Virus record (IMG/VR): IMGVR_UViG_3300021957_000187
Location: 1 to 30,650 of that record
Length of the DNA: 30,650 nucleotides
Direction: 5' to 3' (one strand)
Origin: a virus
Positions 10,048 to 25,348 of this stretch are shown here, in pieces. The notes under the pieces are model-generated. The model worked only from the letters and a program-made list of their open reading frames with translations, ran no database searches and had not been told where the DNA came from. The stretch's first letter is position 1. Each line of letters opens with the position of its first letter. The position numbers were made by a program, and so were the translations under genes.

Positions 10048-11574
10048 ATGGCAGACGAAATTTATATAAACACCAAGAACGCCCAGCATAGTCAGGAAGG
10101 AAACCTAGGGCCGACAGGAACGTTTCAACAAGCTTATCAAGGACAAAGGCCTGCTACAGGTAGGTTACAGGTTCAACGAGTAGTAAGTGGTCAAACACCA
10201 TTTACGTATCAAAACCCGTATCCTTTTACATACCCTGCTAGTGCTCGTGGAAGATACCCTTTTTCGTATCAAAATCCATACCCGTTTACAACCCCTGCCA
10301 GCGCACAAGGTAGATATCCTTTTTCGTATCAAAACCCGTATCCTTTTACTTACCCTGCCAGCGCACAAGGTAGATATCCGTTTACGTATCAGGCATCATA
10401 TAGAACGCCAGGCACTTATCAGGCAAGATATCCATTTATCTATCAAGCAAATGCTCAGGGTAGATATCCTTTCACGTATCAAGCAAATGCTCGTGGGAGA
10501 ACTCAAGCAACTTATCCGTTTACGTATCCTGCTAACATACAAGGTAGATATCCGTTTACGTATCCCGCTAACGCTTCAGGAAGTTATATAGCAAGATATC
10601 CTTTTACGTATCCTGCTAACGCACAAACTACCGTTGTTGCTCGTGCTCAGGCACCCTATCCCTATATCATAGGGGGAGTAACACAACAACCTTTTGTAGG
10701 CGGTCAGTTTAAGGGGAGTTATTTCCCACCTTTCCGTCTTCCATCGACTGGAACTGCAGCTCAAGGTCGTGCTCAGGCACCAGCTGTTCAAACCCAAACT
10801 GGGGGTAGAATTCCCGAAAATGGGTTCAGACAGATACAGGTGGGTGGCAGGCCAGATGAACCATTTTATCAACCGTATACTTTCCAACAACCAGTTGGTT
10901 CAGGTACACAAACACAGTTTACACAGCAACCGTCTACTTATCAGAACAATGCTCGAGGTACAACACCAGCGTCATATCCTTTCACGTATCAAGCAAATGC
11001 TAGGGGAAGATATCCTTTCACGTATCAAGCAAATGCGACTGGTCGATATCAAGTAAGGTATCCTTTTACATACCCTGCTAACGCTCGTGGAAGATACCCG
11101 TTTACATATTCTGCTAGCGGCCGAGGTAGATATCCTGCTAACTCACAAACTCCAGGCACATATCCTGCCAGCGCACAGGGAAGATATCCTTTCACGTATC
11201 AAAACAATGATACGGGTACATATCCTGCCAGCGCACAAGGTAGATATCCATTTATCTATCAAAACAACATCACAGGTACGTATCCTGCCAGCGCACAAGG
11301 TAGATATCCATATATTTACCAAGCTAATTCAACAGGAACTTACCCTGCTAATGCACAACAAGCGTATCCGTTCCAACAGAACTATCAGAACCCGTATCCG
11401 TTCCAACAGAACTATGCAACAACTAGAAACATTGGTGCAGCTGCTAAAGCAAAAGCGGTATACGTGAATGATGCTGGAACTTTGAGAAAGTTACAAGAAG
11501 TCTATGTAAACAATCAAGGACAGATGGAAAAAATTCACCAAACTGTTCCTGTAGCGCAGTTTAATAAAGGTTAA
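10048..11574 (+). CDS. Tyr/Pro-rich repeat protein 1 (putative virion adhesin)
   Basis: A 508-residue low-complexity protein with two blocks of short repeats such as RYPFTYPANAQG, RYPFTYQANARG and TYPASAQG (nt about 10190-10660 and 10925-11415). In the blocks Tyr/Phe fall on even positions counted from each TY start, Pro on odd positions, and unit lengths are even (8, 12, 16, 18). A non-repetitive segment of about 90 residues between the blocks contains GGQFKGSYFPPFRLP. The N-terminus is MADEIYINTKN. The C-terminus has the paired module VYVNDAGTLRKLQEVYVNNQG, typical of phage tail proteins. It is paralogous to the gene at 17967. There is no signal peptide or membrane helix. Its place among fibre genes suggests an exposed virion component. 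I know no named family for it and do not claim a biochemical function. Confidence 0.7.
   Translation: MADEIYINTKNAQHSQEGNLGPTGTFQQAYQGQRPATGRLQVQRVVSGQTPFTYQNPYPFTYPASARGRYPFSYQNPYPFTTPASAQGRYPFSYQNPYPFTYPASAQGRYPFTYQASYRTPGTYQARYPFIYQANAQGRYPFTYQANARGRTQATYPFTYPANIQGRYPFTYPANASGSYIARYPFTYPANAQTTVVARAQAPYPYIIGGVTQQPFVGGQFKGSYFPPFRLPSTGTAAQGRAQAPAVQTQTGGRIPENGFRQIQVGGRPDEPFYQPYTFQQPVGSGTQTQFTQQPSTYQNNARGTTPASYPFTYQANARGRYPFTYQANATGRYQVRYPFTYPANARGRYPFTYSASGRGRYPANSQTPGTYPASAQGRYPFTYQNNDTGTYPASAQGRYPFIYQNNITGTYPASAQGRYPYIYQANSTGTYPANAQQAYPFQQNYQNPYPFQQNYATTRNIGAAAKAKAVYVNDAGTLRKLQEVYVNNQGQMEKIHQTVPVAQFNKG
10190..10660 (+). repeat. Coding tandem repeat block 1 of Tyr/Pro protein 1
   Basis: Imperfect tandem DNA repeats encoding YPFTY/PANAQ units. 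Recurring blocks are GGTAGATATCC, TTTTACGTATC and CCTGCTAACGC. Unit lengths at DNA level are multiples of 6 nt (mostly 24, 36 or 48), which keeps the two-residue register of the protein. Confidence 0.85.
10925..11415 (+). repeat. Coding tandem repeat block 2 of Tyr/Pro protein 1
   Basis: Second block of the same repeats after a unique centre. CATATCCTGCCAGCGCACA recurs near 11160 and 11220 and closely related copies follow. The end of the block (11377-11415) is identical over 39 nt to part of the paralogous gene (19398-19436). Confidence 0.85.
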
Positions 11575-17966: not shown

Positions 17967-19562
17967 ATGGCTTCAGGCTCTCAAAAGGTCAAAACACCTA
18001 CAGGCTGGAATGCAACACAAGGTGCATGGGTAAAAACTCCCGATGGTTGGCGTGCGGTAGAACAAATCTACATTAAGACTCCTACTGGATGGAATAACGC
18101 TAGTGGACAGGAGACTACACAACAACCTTCTAGAAGACCCGCAACAGGAAGACTCCAAGCACAGAGACCAGCTACTGGAACAACCCCTGCCCGAAGACCA
18201 GCAACAGGAAGACTCCAAGCACAGAGACCAGCGACAGGACAAACGCCATATCCTGCTAACGCACAGACGCCAGGCACATATCCTGCCAACGCACAACAAC
18301 CTTATCCTGCTAACGCACAGACGCCAGGCACATATCCTGCCAACGCAAGACAGCCTGGAACTTACCAAACGCCATACAGAACTCCGTCTACGTATCAAGC
18401 AAGATACCCGTTTACATACCCTGCTAATTCGCAATCACCGTTTACGTATCAAGCAAGATACCCGTTTACATACCCTGCTAATTCACAAGCACCGTTTACG
18501 TATCAAGCAAGATATCCTTTTACATATCCAGCTTCTTACAGATACCCAAGTACATATCAAGCAAGATATCCATTTACGTATCAAGCACCAACAACTTATC
18601 GGGCAAGATACCCCGCTAATACAACGTACCCTGCTAACTTCAATGCGCCAGGCACGTATCCTGCTAATACAACGTACCCTGCTAACTTCAATGCGCCAGG
18701 CACGTATCCCGCTAATACAACGTATCCTGCTAATACAACTTACCCTGCTAATGCAAGGCAACCAGCAACGTATACCTATATTGGACAGCTGCCTGTAGCT
18801 TTCCAATTTAAAGGAGCTCCCAGTGTGGGACGAGTTCCTTCGCCTCTAATTGGCAACACACGGAATCCGTTCACGTATCAAGCGCCAACGACCTATCAAG
18901 CGCCAACGACCTATCAGTCAGCATATAGGTTCCCAAGTACGTATCAAGCACCAACGACCTATCAGGCATCATATAGGTTCCCAAGTACGTATCAAGCACC
19001 AACGACCTATCGTGCGAGATATCCAGCTAATACAACGTATCCAGCAAATGCTCGTGGAACATATCCTGCTAACTTTAGAGTACCCGCAGCTTATCAAGCA
19101 AGTGCTCGTGGAAGATACCCTGCTAACGCAAGACAACCTGGCACGTATCAGAACAATGCTAGAGGAAGATATCCAGCGAACGCAAGACAACCTGGCACGT
19201 ATCAGGCAAATGCTAGAGGAAGATATCCTGCTAACGCACAAACTCCTGGCACGTACCCTGCTAGTTATCAGACGCCATTTACGTATCAGGCTAATTACAG
19301 AACTCCGTCTATCTATCAGGCGAGGTCTCCGTTCACTTATCAGAATAACTATAGGACTCCGTCCACGTATCAGGCGCAACAACCTTATCCGTATCAGCAG
19401 AACTATCAGAACCCGTATCCGTTCCAACAGAACTATCAGAACCCGTATCCGTATCAGCAGAACTATCAGAACCCATACCCGTTCCAACAGGCTTATCAAC
19501 ATGCTGTACAAAGATGGGATGGAGTTTTACAACAACAGTGGCCCGCAACTCCTATTTCTTAG
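17967..19562 (+). CDS. Tyr/Pro-rich repeat protein 2 (putative virion adhesin)
   Basis: A 531-residue paralogue of the protein at 10048. The N-terminus carries three Trp modules (VKTPTGWN, VKTPDGWRAVEQIY, IKTPTGWN), a pattern known from phage tail proteins. Then comes an RRPATGRLQAQ repeat (present once in protein 1). Next are Tyr/Pro units such as TYPANAQTPG, TYQARYPF, TYQAPT and TYRARYPANT. Unit lengths are even (6, 8, 10, 12, 18), with aromatics at even and Pro at odd positions. A short unique centre (IGQLPVAFQFKGAPSVG) shares QFKG with protein 1. The C-terminus is Gln/Asn/Tyr-rich (QQNYQNPYPF copies) and ends VLQQQWPATPIS. AGGA at 17954-17957 precedes the ATG. It is the last gene before a terminator and the modification-type enzymes. 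Surface exposure and adhesion are inferred. Confidence 0.7.
   Translation: MASGSQKVKTPTGWNATQGAWVKTPDGWRAVEQIYIKTPTGWNNASGQETTQQPSRRPATGRLQAQRPATGTTPARRPATGRLQAQRPATGQTPYPANAQTPGTYPANAQQPYPANAQTPGTYPANARQPGTYQTPYRTPSTYQARYPFTYPANSQSPFTYQARYPFTYPANSQAPFTYQARYPFTYPASYRYPSTYQARYPFTYQAPTTYRARYPANTTYPANFNAPGTYPANTTYPANFNAPGTYPANTTYPANTTYPANARQPATYTYIGQLPVAFQFKGAPSVGRVPSPLIGNTRNPFTYQAPTTYQAPTTYQSAYRFPSTYQAPTTYQASYRFPSTYQAPTTYRARYPANTTYPANARGTYPANFRVPAAYQASARGRYPANARQPGTYQNNARGRYPANARQPGTYQANARGRYPANAQTPGTYPASYQTPFTYQANYRTPSIYQARSPFTYQNNYRTPSTYQAQQPYPYQQNYQNPYPFQQNYQNPYPYQQNYQNPYPFQQAYQHAVQRWDGVLQQQWPATPIS
18115..18775 (+). repeat. Coding tandem repeat block 1 of Tyr/Pro protein 2
   Basis: Imperfect repeats including two near-identical AATACAACGTACCCTGCTAA units (about 18617-18720) and CAAGCAAGATACCCGTTTAC units. 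Steps are multiples of 6 nt (18, 24, 30). Confidence 0.85.
18860..19500 (+). repeat. Coding tandem repeat block 2 of Tyr/Pro protein 2
   Basis: Repeats built from CAAGCGCCAACGACCTAT, CGCAAGACAACCTGGCACGT and CAGAACTATCAGAACCCGTA. It shares a 39-nt identical stretch (19398-19436) with the first Tyr/Pro gene. Confidence 0.85.
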
Positions 19563-19606: not shown

Positions 19607-21178
19607 ATGGAACATTTGAGTAAACCTCAGCAGGCCCATTCGGCACTGAGACCTAAATCACAACCCGAATATGATAGTATGGGTTTCAACCCTATGCGTC
19701 TTGATTGGACTAGCGAGAGTCCACGTTCACAGATATTTTACAAGGGTGGTCACTACATGGGTGAAATACCTATTTGGGCCGATGGTAGTATCGACACCAC
19801 CTGTAATACATTCAAAAACGCCAAACGTCTTATGGAAGAAGTCTATGTACCCACTTGTAAATTAGTTACTTGGGGTGACTTAAAAAAATCTAAGAAGATA
19901 GATTTGAATAGATTCTCATTAGATTATCAAGCTTCAGGGTACTTGAAATATATACCCGACTTCCACTCTACTGGCGGTTCAATGCAAAGAGAGGAAACTG
20001 TAACAGGTAGAAAGATAGGTGGAAAGGGTGAAGATAGGGACGAGGTTGGGTCAACATTTTATCATGGGTGTAAGGGACATTGGTTACTCCATGATGTAAA
20101 AAAGAATGGTCTAAATCAACCCATTCAAGGCGTCATATTTAAAAGTCATATAGATGATGAGTATAATATTCACATACATCCTGGCTCAGTTAGACAAGGT
20201 GTATTTGGTATGGTGGATGATGATGACAACGAGTTAATCATTTGGGATGCATATAATGCCTTTGATGAGATTGACCCCCTTCCTATAGAAGACTGGATGA
20301 AAATATTTGCTAGACCTCAATTTGATGGTCAAATACCTACGTGTATGAATTTAGTATACAGTTATACTCATCTTGAAATACAAGTTAGTGGTGCGTGGAA
20401 AGATGAAAAGGAAGACATGGATGTCAATTGGAGAGCTAAGGTTACAGAATTTTCCAAGAAAGTATCTAAAAAGTTTAATGGGAAACCATTGAATATTTAC
20501 ATTGGGTATGATTCTAGACATGAGGGTATAGAAGATATACAAATAGAATCTATACAAAAGGCAATGTCTAAAACTATCAAAAAAGAACCCGCTATTAAAT
20601 TTGTTCCCGAATTCAAATTGCTTGACATTTCAAAGATTCCCGAATATACTAGAGAATATGGTAATCAATCTACTGAGTTTACATACAGTAGATTTCTAAT
20701 CCCGTACTTAGAGAATTATGAAGGGTTTAGTATGTTTATAGATAACGATTTTATATGGAAGAGACCTTTGTGGGAAATGTTCTACTTTCTACACCCCGAT
20801 AATGCTGTAGCATGTGTTCAATATGAACATGAACTGGAAAAGATGTCTACAACTAAAATGGGTGGTGAGAAGAATGTAATGTATCCGAAAAAACTATGGT
20901 CTAGTTTCATGGTATTCAATAACAGTCACGAAGACTGTAAAAAACTAACTCCCGATATTATTAATACGGAAAGCGGTGAATACTTACATCAATTTAAATG
21001 GACTGATAAGATTGACCGCATCCCCGATAAATACATTTTAACAGAGGGGATGTCCGATGACGATAAACGTCATCACGCTGTACACTATACAAGAGGTGGC
21101 CCATGGATAGAGGGTATGGATTGCAGTGAAATCAAACACCTAGAGTTGTATAACACTTTTTTAGACAACAATAAATAA
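19607..21178 (+). CDS. GT8-like glycosyltransferase with extra N-terminal domain
   Basis: A 523-residue putative two-domain protein. The C-terminal half (about 294-515) looks like a GT-A fold glycosyltransferase of the GT8 type. It begins LNIYIGYDSRHEG, has FTYSRFLIPYLENYEG, and a DxD metal/sugar-nucleotide motif D379-N380-D381 in FIDNDF. WSSFMVFNN (431-439) and the closing HYTRGGPW (493-500) correspond to the conserved GT8 end. The N-terminal half is different: HGCKGHWLLHDVKKNG (153-168) followed by IHIHPGSVRQGVF (188-200) resembles the ParB/sulfiredoxin-like layout seen in phage proteins. That assignment is weaker. GGAG lies 4 nt before the ATG. It opens the auxiliary enzyme operon. Substrate is unknown; a virion protein, a host glycan or DNA are all possible. 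Confidence 0.7.
   Translation: MEHLSKPQQAHSALRPKSQPEYDSMGFNPMRLDWTSESPRSQIFYKGGHYMGEIPIWADGSIDTTCNTFKNAKRLMEEVYVPTCKLVTWGDLKKSKKIDLNRFSLDYQASGYLKYIPDFHSTGGSMQREETVTGRKIGGKGEDRDEVGSTFYHGCKGHWLLHDVKKNGLNQPIQGVIFKSHIDDEYNIHIHPGSVRQGVFGMVDDDDNELIIWDAYNAFDEIDPLPIEDWMKIFARPQFDGQIPTCMNLVYSYTHLEIQVSGAWKDEKEDMDVNWRAKVTEFSKKVSKKFNGKPLNIYIGYDSRHEGIEDIQIESIQKAMSKTIKKEPAIKFVPEFKLLDISKIPEYTREYGNQSTEFTYSRFLIPYLENYEGFSMFIDNDFIWKRPLWEMFYFLHPDNAVACVQYEHELEKMSTTKMGGEKNVMYPKKLWSSFMVFNNSHEDCKKLTPDIINTESGEYLHQFKWTDKIDRIPDKYILTEGMSDDDKRHHAVHYTRGGPWIEGMDCSEIKHLELYNTFLDNNK
21170..21177 (+). promoter_or_regulatory. Possible late promoter AATAAATA
   Basis: nATAAATA match overlapping the stop of the glycosyltransferase gene. 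The expected start is near 21183, only about 14 nt before ATG 21197, and the GAGAGGA ribosome site (21182-21188) lies at its edge. The sequence also encodes Asn-Lys-stop, so chance is possible. Confidence 0.4.
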
Positions 21179-21196: not shown

Positions 21197-21754
21197 ATGA
21201 ATGCTTTAATTTTTACTGAAGATAACAATCTTCACATCACTCAACAAAATGGGTTGAGATATAACTACGACAACGTTTCTAAACCTAATCTTGGTTTTGA
21301 TTTTGATGTTATCATCTATGATAACAGAGATGAGTATAAGGTTGTTAACTATGATGATTCTAAATCATTTGACCAACAGAATAGGGAACCGCTTACTGAC
21401 ACTGACAGAGATGCCATTGAAAATTTTATAACAAATTCAGAACCACCACAAGGTGTATCTTTAGCAGACCAACATTGTGGAGACCTTCAGAGTTACGTTG
21501 ATGACATGGTTAATGATATGTGTGGTCAGTATCGTTTTAATGATTTGACTCAAGTTGTTTATGCTGGAAGAGAAGGGTCAAACCATCCCTTTAGGTCTGA
21601 TGCAAGACGGGTTATGGAATATGCAGACGCTACATATGGTATATTTTTTCAAGTGGTGAATGAAATCCAATCAACAAGAGAAGACCATATTAAAGATTTT
21701 GAATCTTACTCAAATCAAATACCAACTCCAATAACTAATAACAGTTTGTCTTAA
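21197..21754 (+). CDS. Conserved-looking phage protein, unknown function
   Basis: A 185-residue acidic protein without membrane segments. The first 60 residues look beta-rich (ALIFTEDNNLHITQ, FDVIIYDNRDEYKVV). The C-terminal part is helical, with FRSDARRVMEYADATYG and EIQSTREDHIKDFESY. That helical end faintly recalls tail-fibre assembly or DUF4376-type proteins of phages, but I cannot assign it. GAGAGGA (21182-21188) precedes the ATG. Its stop overlaps the next start by one base (TAATG), tying it to the oxygenase downstream. It could be a chaperone or partner for the enzymes or the fibre proteins. Confidence 0.6.
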   Translation: MNALIFTEDNNLHITQQNGLRYNYDNVSKPNLGFDFDVIIYDNRDEYKVVNYDDSKSFDQQNREPLTDTDRDAIENFITNSEPPQGVSLADQHCGDLQSYVDDMVNDMCGQYRFNDLTQVVYAGREGSNHPFRSDARRVMEYADATYGIFFQVVNEIQSTREDHIKDFESYSNQIPTPITNNSLS

Positions 21755-22533
21755 TGGAAATTGTCTATCATGATTCGCCCTTTAAGTTGTCGAACGACAA
21801 CTATCCATTTGGTAAAGGTAACGAGGCAACGATTCATGTGGTAGATAATTACTTAGAACCGCATCTTTGGCATTGGTGGGATAAAAAGTTAATTGAGTCA
21901 TGTGTTTGGTCAAAAACAAATCAAGTTGGTAGTGATAGTAAAACAGGATTACCCCATCATAGTTTTTGGGGCGGTACATTTTTTAATTCGATGTTTACCG
22001 ATGGCCCAGAACTAAACGTTCCCGAATATACAGAAAATACGTATACATACTTTCCCCGATATTTCGACCAAAGAGTTAGAACAGACTTTGGGTTTGAATG
22101 GGTCAACTATGATTATATGGGATTGAATAGTCAAACACAAGGTCTTGATGGTACAAACCACACAGATTGTGCAGAGGATGCTGATTGGAATTTATCATTT
22201 TTATTTTACTTAAATACGTTTTGGAATCCATCGTGGGGTGGAGATTTAAGAATGTATGACACCAATGAAGGTGGGGGTAGAAATGATTCACAAGACAAGT
22301 ATGAGATAGGAAGGATTGAGTTTAAACCAAACAGACTGTTATTATTTGATGGTAGAACACCTCATGGTGCAGAGGCTCCAACTGCAGCTGCTAAATATGT
22401 AGATAGACGGTCATTGGTTCATCGTGGAACTGAAATAAGATTTGCTGATAAAGAAGATACATATATGCCAAACGTAGAAAAGAAACTAAACTTTAATCGA
22501 TACGCTGTACAAAAGCATTTTGGGGAGTGGTAA
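21754..22533 (+). CDS. 2OG-Fe(II) oxygenase, prolyl 4-hydroxylase-like
   Basis: A 259-residue 2-oxoglutarate/Fe(II)-dependent dioxygenase with a double-stranded beta-helix core. The iron facial triad is visible: H136-x-D138 in TNHTDCAED and H204 in RTPHGAEAP. The 2-oxoglutarate-binding Arg is probably R219 in DRRSLVHR. WNPSWGGDLRMY (157-168) and FKPNRLLLFDG (190-200) match the prolyl 4-hydroxylase-type pattern of gain-of-strand before the distal His. Such enzymes hydroxylate Pro or other residues in proteins; some act on small molecules. It is coupled by TAATG to both neighbours. Candidate substrates are the Pro-rich repeat proteins upstream; this is inference. The active site appears intact. 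Confidence 0.8.
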   Translation: MEIVYHDSPFKLSNDNYPFGKGNEATIHVVDNYLEPHLWHWWDKKLIESCVWSKTNQVGSDSKTGLPHHSFWGGTFFNSMFTDGPELNVPEYTENTYTYFPRYFDQRVRTDFGFEWVNYDYMGLNSQTQGLDGTNHTDCAEDADWNLSFLFYLNTFWNPSWGGDLRMYDTNEGGGRNDSQDKYEIGRIEFKPNRLLLFDGRTPHGAEAPTAAAKYVDRRSLVHRGTEIRFADKEDTYMPNVEKKLNFNRYAVQKHFGEW

Positions 22534-23477
22534 TGCCTACTATTACTTTTAGTTCGTTTGAAACCGAATCCTTTGAAACACTAAGACCTGTACCTTCAAA
22601 TAAAATGCAACCCGACTGGTGGAAGAAATCAAAGGTACATGCAATTCAAAATGGAGTCGCCACTATAACTCTAAGGTCATGTCCTGCCATGCATGATTGG
22701 TTAGCAACAGGTTATTATATTGCAACTAGCACTGACATAGAGTGTATCTACGATGATAATAGAAACGCTTGGCATACACGGACTCCAGCTTCTAAGTCCA
22801 CGATGGAGTTTAAAAACCAAACTTCACCAACCCATGATAAAGCACAATTGATGAAGGACAACTTTTCATTTATTATAAATGATGAGGAGAGTTCAAACAT
22901 GGATGCATTTAAGTTTAGAGTACCTTGGAGAGTGGAAACTCCGCCAGGATATTCATGTCTTTACTTAGACCCCTTTTTGCACCAAAATAAATGGTTTAGG
23001 ACATGGCAAGGTGTGATGGATACGGATATGTTTAATACACAGACTGACAATCAGCAAGTCATAGTTTATCCTCTTGTAAAAAAATCTTTTGTAATTCCTA
23101 AAGATACACCAATTGTACAGATAGTTCCATACAGAAGAGAAGAGTGGGTAGCATCATATATACATAGGGATTTTTCATCAGCAATAACAGAGAATGACCA
23201 TAGAACTTCAGTTTACGGAAAACAACCAATATCAGAACATTGTAGAATAGAAGGAGTAGAGGACTCAGCCGACAATCAAATTCCAGGCGGGTTCTATAGA
23301 AAATATATGTGGGAAAATAAAGTAAAGGATTTCAAAGACGCTCCTAAAGATGAGTGCCCATTTGACCCAAAAACGGGGAAGATGAAAGAAGATTTTAAAG
23401 AAAAACAACAAGACTTGACTGAATTGAACGGAGACGGCAATCGGGATAGGGGGAGATACGGGGAAGATGGCCGTTAG
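22533..23477 (+). CDS. Cupin-like conserved phage protein (DUF6065-like)
   Basis: About 314 residues. I choose ATG 22533, which overlaps the upstream stop as TAATG and has GGGGAG (22522-22527) at good spacing; a GTG two codons upstream (22527) is the longer alternative. Blocks are PDWWKKSKVHAI, TLRSCPAMHDWLATGYYI, FKFRVPWRVETPPGYSCLYL, WQGVMDTDMF and a PIVQIVPYRREEW end. From memory this layout resembles DUF6065, a small beta-barrel-like family of unknown function often near 2OG oxygenases in phages. The C-terminal 60 residues are charged and low in complexity (KTGKMKEDFKEKQQD), probably disordered. It overlaps the next gene by 11 nt. Sitting between two oxygenases, it is probably part of the same pathway. 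Confidence 0.6.
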   Translation: MPTITFSSFETESFETLRPVPSNKMQPDWWKKSKVHAIQNGVATITLRSCPAMHDWLATGYYIATSTDIECIYDDNRNAWHTRTPASKSTMEFKNQTSPTHDKAQLMKDNFSFIINDEESSNMDAFKFRVPWRVETPPGYSCLYLDPFLHQNKWFRTWQGVMDTDMFNTQTDNQQVIVYPLVKKSFVIPKDTPIVQIVPYRREEWVASYIHRDFSSAITENDHRTSVYGKQPISEHCRIEGVEDSADNQIPGGFYRKYMWENKVKDFKDAPKDECPFDPKTGKMKEDFKEKQQDLTELNGDGNRDRGRYGEDGR

Positions 23478-24210
23478 ATTATTGTTTCCAACATATGTAT
23501 TCCATAGGAATTTTCTAGACCCAAATCTAGATGAATCCCAAGGGTACGATTTGGAATATGCAGAGATGTTAGTGAATGAAGTTGACGAAATGCGAAAGCG
23601 TGACCCTATAGGCAGAAACGTATCTAACTCAACAAGTCCTACAGAAAGTTATCAATCGGGTTGGCAGTCAAACGATGGTTGCGAATCCAATGCTATTTTT
23701 CAAAAATGTATGAATCGTATAAGTAGATTTTTTCAAGATGAGGTTCTACCCTTCCATGGAATACATGATAGTAGTGGGATGAAAATGAAAGCAGGAAACT
23801 CATGGGCAAATGTTAACGAAAAGGGGTCTTTCAATAGACCTCACACGCATAACGGTTGCTGGTATTCAGGCGTTTTATACTTAAAAGCAGATGGAGATGA
23901 GGGATGTTTTGTAGCAACTGATACTGACCAAAAGGTGTTATCGATGTTTCCTCACCATCAAAGAGTTAGAGGTGACATGGCACTTCAACCTAAAACAGGA
24001 GATATACATTTATTTCCTAGTGGGTTGTTACACATGGTTGAACCCAACTACACAGATAAATCTAGATATAGCATATCATTTAATATGGACATGGAAAGTG
24101 TATTAAGCAATCAAGGTAAAGGCAACTTTGGTCAAGATTTTTCCGACCCCAATTATGACAATGATGAGTTCGTATTTAATATAGATGAAAGAGGTAACCC
24201 AATACGCTAA
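23467..24210 (+). CDS. 2OG-Fe(II) oxygenase, TIGR02466-like
   Basis: A 247-residue oxygenase of the type annotated in marine phages as putative 2OG-Fe(II) oxygenase (TIGR02466 / 2OG-FeII_Oxy_5). The start VRLLFPTYVFHRNF is typical. The core has NSWANVNEKGSFNRPHTHNG (H126-x-H128) before YSGVLYLKA, then GDIHLFPSGLLHMVEPN (distal H189) and RYSISFNM with R200 as candidate 2-oxoglutarate ligand. The usual D of HxD is not evident in the H-T-H stretch, so metal ligation differs from the first oxygenase. GGGGAAG precedes the ATG inside the upstream gene. Substrate is unknown. Confidence 0.8.
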   Translation: MAVRLLFPTYVFHRNFLDPNLDESQGYDLEYAEMLVNEVDEMRKRDPIGRNVSNSTSPTESYQSGWQSNDGCESNAIFQKCMNRISRFFQDEVLPFHGIHDSSGMKMKAGNSWANVNEKGSFNRPHTHNGCWYSGVLYLKADGDEGCFVATDTDQKVLSMFPHHQRVRGDMALQPKTGDIHLFPSGLLHMVEPNYTDKSRYSISFNMDMESVLSNQGKGNFGQDFSDPNYDNDEFVFNIDERGNPIR

Positions 24211-24532: not shown

Positions 24533-25348
24533 ATGGCCGCACCAAATTCTAAAGACACTTTCAAGCAGTATATCAAGCGTGCTCTTGGAGCTCCAGTTAT
24601 AGAAATCAATATTGATGATGACCAACTGGACGATAGAGTAGACGAAGCATTACAATACTTCCGTGAATACCACTATGATGGGAGTATAAAGACTTATCTG
24701 AAACATCAAGTTAGTGCTAATGATATTATTGGTATGAAAACTAATGAGTCATTTACAGAAAGTGCAGCTGGTACACACGCAAAGACAGACCAAGAATATA
24801 AACAACAACAGAACTATATTGTACTGCCAGAGTTTGTTCTTTCAGTCATAAACATCTTCCCATTCGCAGATAAAAGCAATTTAAACATGTTTGATATTAG
24901 ATATCAATTAAGATTGAATGATATCTATGACCTAACAAACACAAGCATTCTTTATTACTCACAGGTACAACAACATATTTCAATGTTAGACCAAATGTTA
25001 GTAGGTCAAACTCCAATTAGATACAACACTCATATGAACAGATTGTATCTTGATATGGATGCAGATAAAATAAATGCTGGCGAATACATCATTGTTGAGT
25101 GTTATAGAAAACTAGACCCGACTGATTTCACAGACATATATAATGACATGTGGTTAAAAAGATATGCAACCGCATTAGTCAAATATCAGTGGGGACAAAA
25201 CCTTTCAAAGTTTGGTGGTATCGCATTGCCAGGCGGAGTGACATTAGAACCCGATAATATTAAGTCAGAAGCACTAGAAGAAAAAACTAGATTAGAAGAA
25301 GAATCAAGATTGAATTATGAGATGCCTGTCTTAGATATGATGGGGTAA
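24533..25348 (+). CDS. gp13: Neck protein gp13
   Basis: A 271-residue homologue of T4 gp13, which with gp14 completes the head and forms the neck to which the tail binds. Family features are the start DTFKQYIKRALGAPVIEINID, RVDEALQYFREYHYDGS, YIVLPEFVLSVINIFPF, and the late TDIYNDMWLKRYATALVKYQWGQNLSKF followed by PGGVTLE. It is slightly shorter than T4 gp13 (309). It begins the neck-packaging operon under its own late promoter and is 6 nt from gp14. Confidence 0.9.
   Translation: MAAPNSKDTFKQYIKRALGAPVIEINIDDDQLDDRVDEALQYFREYHYDGSIKTYLKHQVSANDIIGMKTNESFTESAAGTHAKTDQEYKQQQNYIVLPEFVLSVINIFPFADKSNLNMFDIRYQLRLNDIYDLTNTSILYYSQVQQHISMLDQMLVGQTPIRYNTHMNRLYLDMDADKINAGEYIIVECYRKLDPTDFTDIYNDMWLKRYATALVKYQWGQNLSKFGGIALPGGVTLEPDNIKSEALEEKTRLEEESRLNYEMPVLDMMG

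Follow-up and report, generated by a model that had tools for sequence, protein, structure and literature searches.

A GT8-type glycosyltransferase fused to a ParB/Srx-like domain in a conserved gene cassette of marine T4-like phages

Two known domains were found in a new fusion, in which a GT8-type glycosyltransferase (GT) is preceded in the same reading frame by a putative divergent ParB/Srx domain. The window, that is, the whole stretch of viral DNA analysed here (IMG/VR record IMGVR_UViG_3300021957_000187), is 30,650 bases long. The fusion ORF at 19607-21178 on its plus strand starts with ATG, is open throughout and encodes 523 aa. The fusion family is common in uncultured marine viruses of bacteria, and the carrier phages are T4-like. 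With a Pro/Tyr-rich repeat protein and two hydroxylase-like genes as neighbours, the fusion gene may belong to a small set of genes for the chemical decoration of a viral fibre. In the open-licence literature searched, we found neither a ParB-glycosyltransferase phage fusion nor a description of this cassette. The features of the fusion protein are as follows.

19607..21178, plus strand: ParB/Srx-like and GT8-like fusion protein, 523 aa (single ORF, relatives, AlphaFold2 model)
19688..20425, plus strand: N-terminal domain (N-domain) modelled alone, residues 28-273 (model pLDDT 82.5; Foldseek, VIA-align, BFVD)
19853..20248, plus strand: putative ParB/Srx core, about residues 83-214 (strand/helix order in models; hhalign to ParB)
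20048..20128, plus strand: Box I-like (C motif) helix and loop, residues 148-174, including YHGCKGHWLLHDVKKNGLNQPI (aligned to ParB LxxSIxxxGxxQPI)
20177..20194, plus strand: Box II-like (P motif) GxxR in HPGSVR, residues 191-196
20480..21175, plus strand: GT8-type glycosyltransferase domain by predicted fold, residues 292-523 (LgtC fold match; phrog_28018, E 5.2e-44)
20741..20749, plus strand: DxD metal/nucleotide-sugar motif, D379-N-D381
21083..21106, plus strand: GT8-like terminal motif HYTRGGPW, residues 493-500

Relatives were gathered from viral contigs with profiles of the whole protein and of the N-domain, with up to 264 relatives per scan, of which the best 80 were covered. ORFs were taken from stop to stop for the motif, fusion and cassette counts, and "distinct" refers to ORF translations and not to contigs, as the same contigs recur across scans. 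Across 569 loci, the N-domain was carried by 144 distinct ORFs, and 143 of these had a GT profile match in that frame as well. Among the distinct complete relatives, 137 of 138 were fused in one frame, so the joining of both halves noticed in the sequence-only reading held for the family as well as for the single ORF of the window. The sole unfused N-domain ORF, L449, has a split frame with the GT part directly after it, and L165 is a shortened ORF with a split frame and the remaining GT adjoining. In these two loci (L165, 252-1857; L449, 619-2200), the fusion ORF is interrupted by a change of frame that lies either between the domains or within one.

The sequence blocks singled out in that reading were all located in the translation: HGxxGHW as HGCKGHW at residues 153-159, IHIHPGSVRQG at residues 188-198, DxD as D379-N-D381 and HYTRGGPW at residues 493-500. 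YHxxKxHW and HPGSxR were each present in all 138 distinct complete members. FxD[DN]D and H[YWF]TRGGPW were each present in 136, the misses being the frame-split L165 and L449. The narrower pattern HPGS[VI]R was matched in 104/107, and the 3 misses read HPGSMR. Such retention of motifs across 138 distinct complete relatives indicates that the fusion ORF is not a chance one. In five pairs, dN/dS (NG86) ranged from 0.12 to 0.42 in the N-domain and from 0.05 to 0.26 in the GT domain, all below 0.5, which indicates purifying selection on both halves. The AlphaFold2 model of the whole fusion protein had a pLDDT of 82.7 and a pTM of 0.85. Alignment A4 was made without L145, which has an X in its translation, and without near-duplicates; L068 was omitted because its match contains a stop. 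PDB sequence searches with P0001, A1 and A2 gave nothing meaningful.

The model of the GT domain matched the fold of LgtC (1ss9) with a Z of 14.4 and an rmsd of 3.2 over 205 aligned residues. Pfam GT8 (Glyco_transf_8) was matched by 21/38 members at E<=1 (best 5.1e-6) and not by the window protein. Both Asp residues of the DxD motif were invariant in 38/38 aligned sequences. The fold match and the Pfam matches support the GT8-like C-terminus proposed earlier; the predicted structure identifies this half as a GT8-type glycosyltransferase of the LgtC-type GT-A fold. It resembles the GT8 enzymes LgtC, glycogenin and GlyE in fold, in the DxD motif and in a C-terminal block of the H..GGPW type, but differs from them in an identity to LgtC of 12% over the structural alignment, in the weak or absent Pfam GT8 score of individual members and in the presence of the N-domain. 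When stand-alone versions of each half were sought, the GT was found without the N-domain in 50 distinct complete ORFs, mostly of 220-230 aa. The stand-alone GTs of the phrog_28018 type in Stenotrophomonas phage DLP6 and Pelagibacter phage Mosig have a homologous catalytic domain (34-36% identity), but they are about 220-230 aa long, lack the N-domain and lie in another gene context.

The N-terminal half had been guessed to be ParB/Srx-like. When the model of residues 28-273 was searched against the PDB with Foldseek, ranks 1-31 were all ParB/Srx chains, including PadC, ParB, Noc, KorB, Srx and 1vk1, which we take to be a SerK relative; the E values were 0.054-0.67, none of them <=0.001. A BFVD search with the same model returned many ParB/Srx proteins. 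In VIA-align, Srx and ParB scored Z 2.0-2.8, below the unrelated argininosuccinate synthase at Z 3.6. With Foldseek E values of at least 0.054 and a VIA-align Z below 3, the structural comparisons do not settle the fold by themselves. The family profile was compared by hhalign with 31 ParB proteins taken from the L187 and L188 genomes and from genomes of the phylum of L188. The Box I helix and loop were aligned with P 3.4e-4 and a probability of 38%, and the score of 31.1 exceeded both the maximum of 24.9 in 300 column shuffles and the 11.9 of the reversed profile. The Box I-like G[LM]xxP[IV] was present in 127/138 distinct complete members. HPGSxR follows at the position of ParB GERR in a by-eye register with a two-residue insertion, the hhalign alignment ending just before it. 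In the ParB-CTPase fold the P motif is GxxR, and orphan ParBs often have a divergent Box III or none (PMC12704722).

Ten residues of the N-domain (Y152, H153, K156, H158, W159, H191, P192, G193, S194 and R196) were invariant in 38/38 aligned sequences. Pfam ParB_N (PF02195) gave no match in the window and none among 38 members at E<=1. The Foldseek ranks, the BFVD matches and the Box I alignment scoring above shuffles favour the ParB/Srx guess, and the N-terminal half was not found to belong to a single known transferase family. Its extent has to be corrected: a ParB/Srx core is recognisable at about residues 83-214 and not over the whole of the first 230-235 residues, and the models show an additional linker region of strands and helices at about residues 220-290. 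These results make a moderately strong case, from sequence comparison and models, for a divergent ParB/Srx ("ParB-CTPase") domain as the best reading of the N-terminal half. It is like ParB, Noc, KorB, PadC, Srx and SerK in its Box I-like helix-loop, Box II GxxR and strand/helix order, and unlike ParB/Srx proteins in having no Pfam ParB match, long inserts, no ParABS setting and a fused GT.

The N-domain was found only in fused form (143/144 distinct ORFs), and no stand-alone version was found among the 80 best-ranked relatives (of up to 264) covered by each of four scans of viral contigs. The genome contigs likewise held no stand-alone N-domain; the 2 relatives there were both within the same cassette. 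In tblastn searches with the N-domain against phage records, a collection that may omit records near the window, three queries had no match and L131 had one match at chance level (E 0.7), so that none of its records was seen to contain the domain.

The cassette has the order PFTY-repeat protein, fusion, 185-aa protein, 2OG-Fe(II) oxygenase, 316-aa protein, second oxygenase and neck gene. A second repeat protein is encoded elsewhere in the window. The features other than the fusion are listed below.

10048..11574, plus strand: second Pro/Tyr-rich repeat protein, 508 aa (translation)
17967..19562, plus strand: Pro/Tyr-rich repeat protein, 531 aa, candidate acceptor, with the C-terminal tail RWDGVLQQQWPATPIS (translation, repeat statistics)
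21197..21754, plus strand: conserved 185-aa cassette protein (296 relatives found)
21754..22533, plus strand: 2OG-Fe(II) oxygenase A (Pfam PF13640, E 9.7e-10)
22527..23477, plus strand: conserved 316-aa cassette protein (phrog_7084)
23467..24210, plus strand: 2OG-Fe(II) oxygenase B (Pfam PF13759, E 1.3e-20)
24533..25348, plus strand: neck/head-tail adaptor gene after the cassette (phrog_211, E 1.5e-46)

The 185-aa protein, for which 15 members gave no convincing PHROG or Pfam family, was also used as a query for cassette loci. Among the best 80 of its 296 relatives, both oxygenases and the 316-aa protein were present in 80/80 loci. In those of the best 80 with more than 1.6 kb upstream, the fusion was present in 67/68 and the repeat protein in 66/68. 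L192-L194 were included in these counts by direct reading, and each shows the full cassette. The gene order persisted even at 21% N-domain identity to that of the window. Because the carrier phages are related, these matches are not independent events, and they represent conserved synteny and not repeated independent gain. In one locus, L206 (195-3512), the 185-aa/oxygenase block is present but both the fusion and the repeat protein are missing, and their place directly upstream is taken by two other ORFs, baseplate-like by appearance; this may reflect loss, rearrangement or misassembly.

The HxD...H...R pattern of oxygenase A was kept in the consensus of 106 distinct relatives. Oxygenase A is labelled "DNA endonuclease V" by PHROG (phrog_274) and 2OG-Fe(II) oxygenase by Pfam, and a cyanophage annotation shares the former label. 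Haloarchaeal tailed viruses encode relatives of the 316-aa protein, the one in HRTV-2 lying close to a gene for thymidylate synthase, and two adjacent copies were labelled in several loci of the L110-L118 clade. The neighbours in the genome comprise a baseplate wedge, a 2231-aa protein, fibre-like proteins, the fusion, the two 2OG-Fe(II) oxygenases, neck, terminase and sheath, which locates the fusion among the late genes of a T4-like phage. For the terminase, the closest isolate among the matches listed was phage C48C1, with 54% identity.

The repeat protein is encoded directly upstream of the fusion gene. All 113 distinct complete fusions for which 1.5 kb or more of upstream sequence was available had a repeat ORF there. 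Compared with other labelled ORFs, 95 distinct repeat ORFs were enriched in P (2.7x), Q (2.8x) and Y (1.9x), with K at 0.21x, and PFTY occurred 911 times and in 95/95 of them. A search of viral contigs with the tail only found the fusion, including its N-domain, downstream in 80/80 (best 80 of 207 relatives). The tail pattern RWDGxxxQQWPxxPI was matched by 56 of the 137 ORFs labelled as repeat protein, fragments included. In the window (19512-19559) and in relatives, this RWDG...QQWP..PI tail sits on low-complexity repeat proteins, and it is possibly a capping or attachment peptide. The search of the phage-record collection with the repeat protein (P0004) gave no match, a result in which the low-complexity filter may hide matches. 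The repeat protein is presumed to be a fibre, or at least a virion protein. Segments with CFAAG..., presumably a Hint-like motif, were seen in repeat or fibre proteins of the related phages L155 (2815-4119), L288 (2-505), L292 (3-608) and L296 (2-553); in L155 the segment lies within a PFTY-repeat protein itself. These segments hint at self-splicing or self-cleaving fibre proteins.

We propose that the fusion is a nucleotide-dependent glycosyltransferase that would decorate the upstream repeat fibre together with the two hydroxylases, a proposal including acceptor and nucleotide use that we judge about evenly balanced. From its fold and motifs, the GT8-type domain would transfer a sugar from a nucleotide sugar. 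The N-domain, with its putative ParB/Srx fold and Box I- and GxxR-like sites, would probably bind an NTP, and this binding may gate or assist the transferase. The conserved gene order points to the PFTY-repeat protein encoded immediately upstream as the most likely acceptor, and the two neighbouring oxygenases may hydroxylate residues of the same protein. A fibre or virion appendage carrying both added hydroxyl groups and sugars would result. A more elaborate version, a novel type of phage system for decorating proteins in which the N-domain of the fusion is an NTPase or kinase, the PFTY fibre is hydroxylated, glycosylated and possibly phosphorylated, and a ParB-type nucleotide switch or phosphotransfer controls how processively the repeats are modified, seems improbable to us.

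The N-domain may instead have lost nucleotide binding and serve the GT only in recognising the acceptor or as a scaffold. PadC uses the ParB fold as a scaffold, and 17 of the 28 purified ParB-fold proteins tested in the PNAS 2025 survey bound no NTP (PMC12704722), so that NTP binding by the N-domain cannot be assumed. However, the ten invariant residues, together with HPGSxR and YHxxKxHW kept in every distinct complete member, amount to more conservation than a scaffold role would seem to require. We consider loss of nucleotide binding somewhat unlikely; it concerns the N-domain only and can be compatible with the repeat protein as acceptor.

Two further explanations concern the acceptor. The GT could modify host surface glycans (LPS/O-antigen) and thereby exclude superinfection, the repeat protein being linked to it only through a shared host-recognition gene cluster. 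The nearest fold to the GT domain is that of LgtC, an LPS galactosyltransferase. Pelagimyophage GT8 genes in this genome region have also been read as host-surface (LPS) modifiers in PMC7029224, where the host-recognition cluster is described as hypervariable. The fusion, the repeat protein and the oxygenases nevertheless stay together, and two 2OG oxygenases beside a repeat protein are not called for by surface modification. We regard surface modification as rather unlikely. The cassette could also hypermodify phage DNA, with the oxygenases oxidising a base, the GT glycosylating it and the ParB/Srx half acting as a DNA-associated NTPase. ParB-fold proteins and glycosyltransferases reportedly occur in DNA-modification systems, as Iyer is said to have described in 2013. 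However, the oxygenases match PF13640 and PF13759 and not the TET/JBP family, which is known for oxidising bases. Also in favour of the DNA reading, phage ParB-fold fusions often carry methyltransferases, according to PMC12704722. In the loci that reach far enough, the cassette nonetheless lies between fibre-like and neck genes and not among replication genes, and modification of DNA is in our view highly unlikely.

Decoration of the repeat fibre has a partial parallel in mimivirus, which reportedly has collagen hydroxylase and glycosyltransferase enzymes (PMC9546862). The likeness, drawn as an analogy, would be the hydroxylation and glycosylation of a repeat protein; the phage cassette differs in its separate genes, in a GT8 carrying a ParB-fold domain and in a candidate acceptor that is poor in lysine. 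The PNAS 2025 survey, which was HMM-based, describes ParB-fold domains joined to enzyme domains, phages included, and in this the present fusion is similar (PMC12704722). Unlike those HMM-found fusions, the family described here scores with no Pfam ParB HMM. The main text of the survey contains no glycosyltransferase fusion, and "glycosyl" occurs in it once, in a reference title (PMC12704722). If the proposed reading is true, a glycosyltransferase would have been placed under a ParB/Srx fold, and a widespread group of marine phages would own a hydroxylation-glycosylation kit for a repeat protein.
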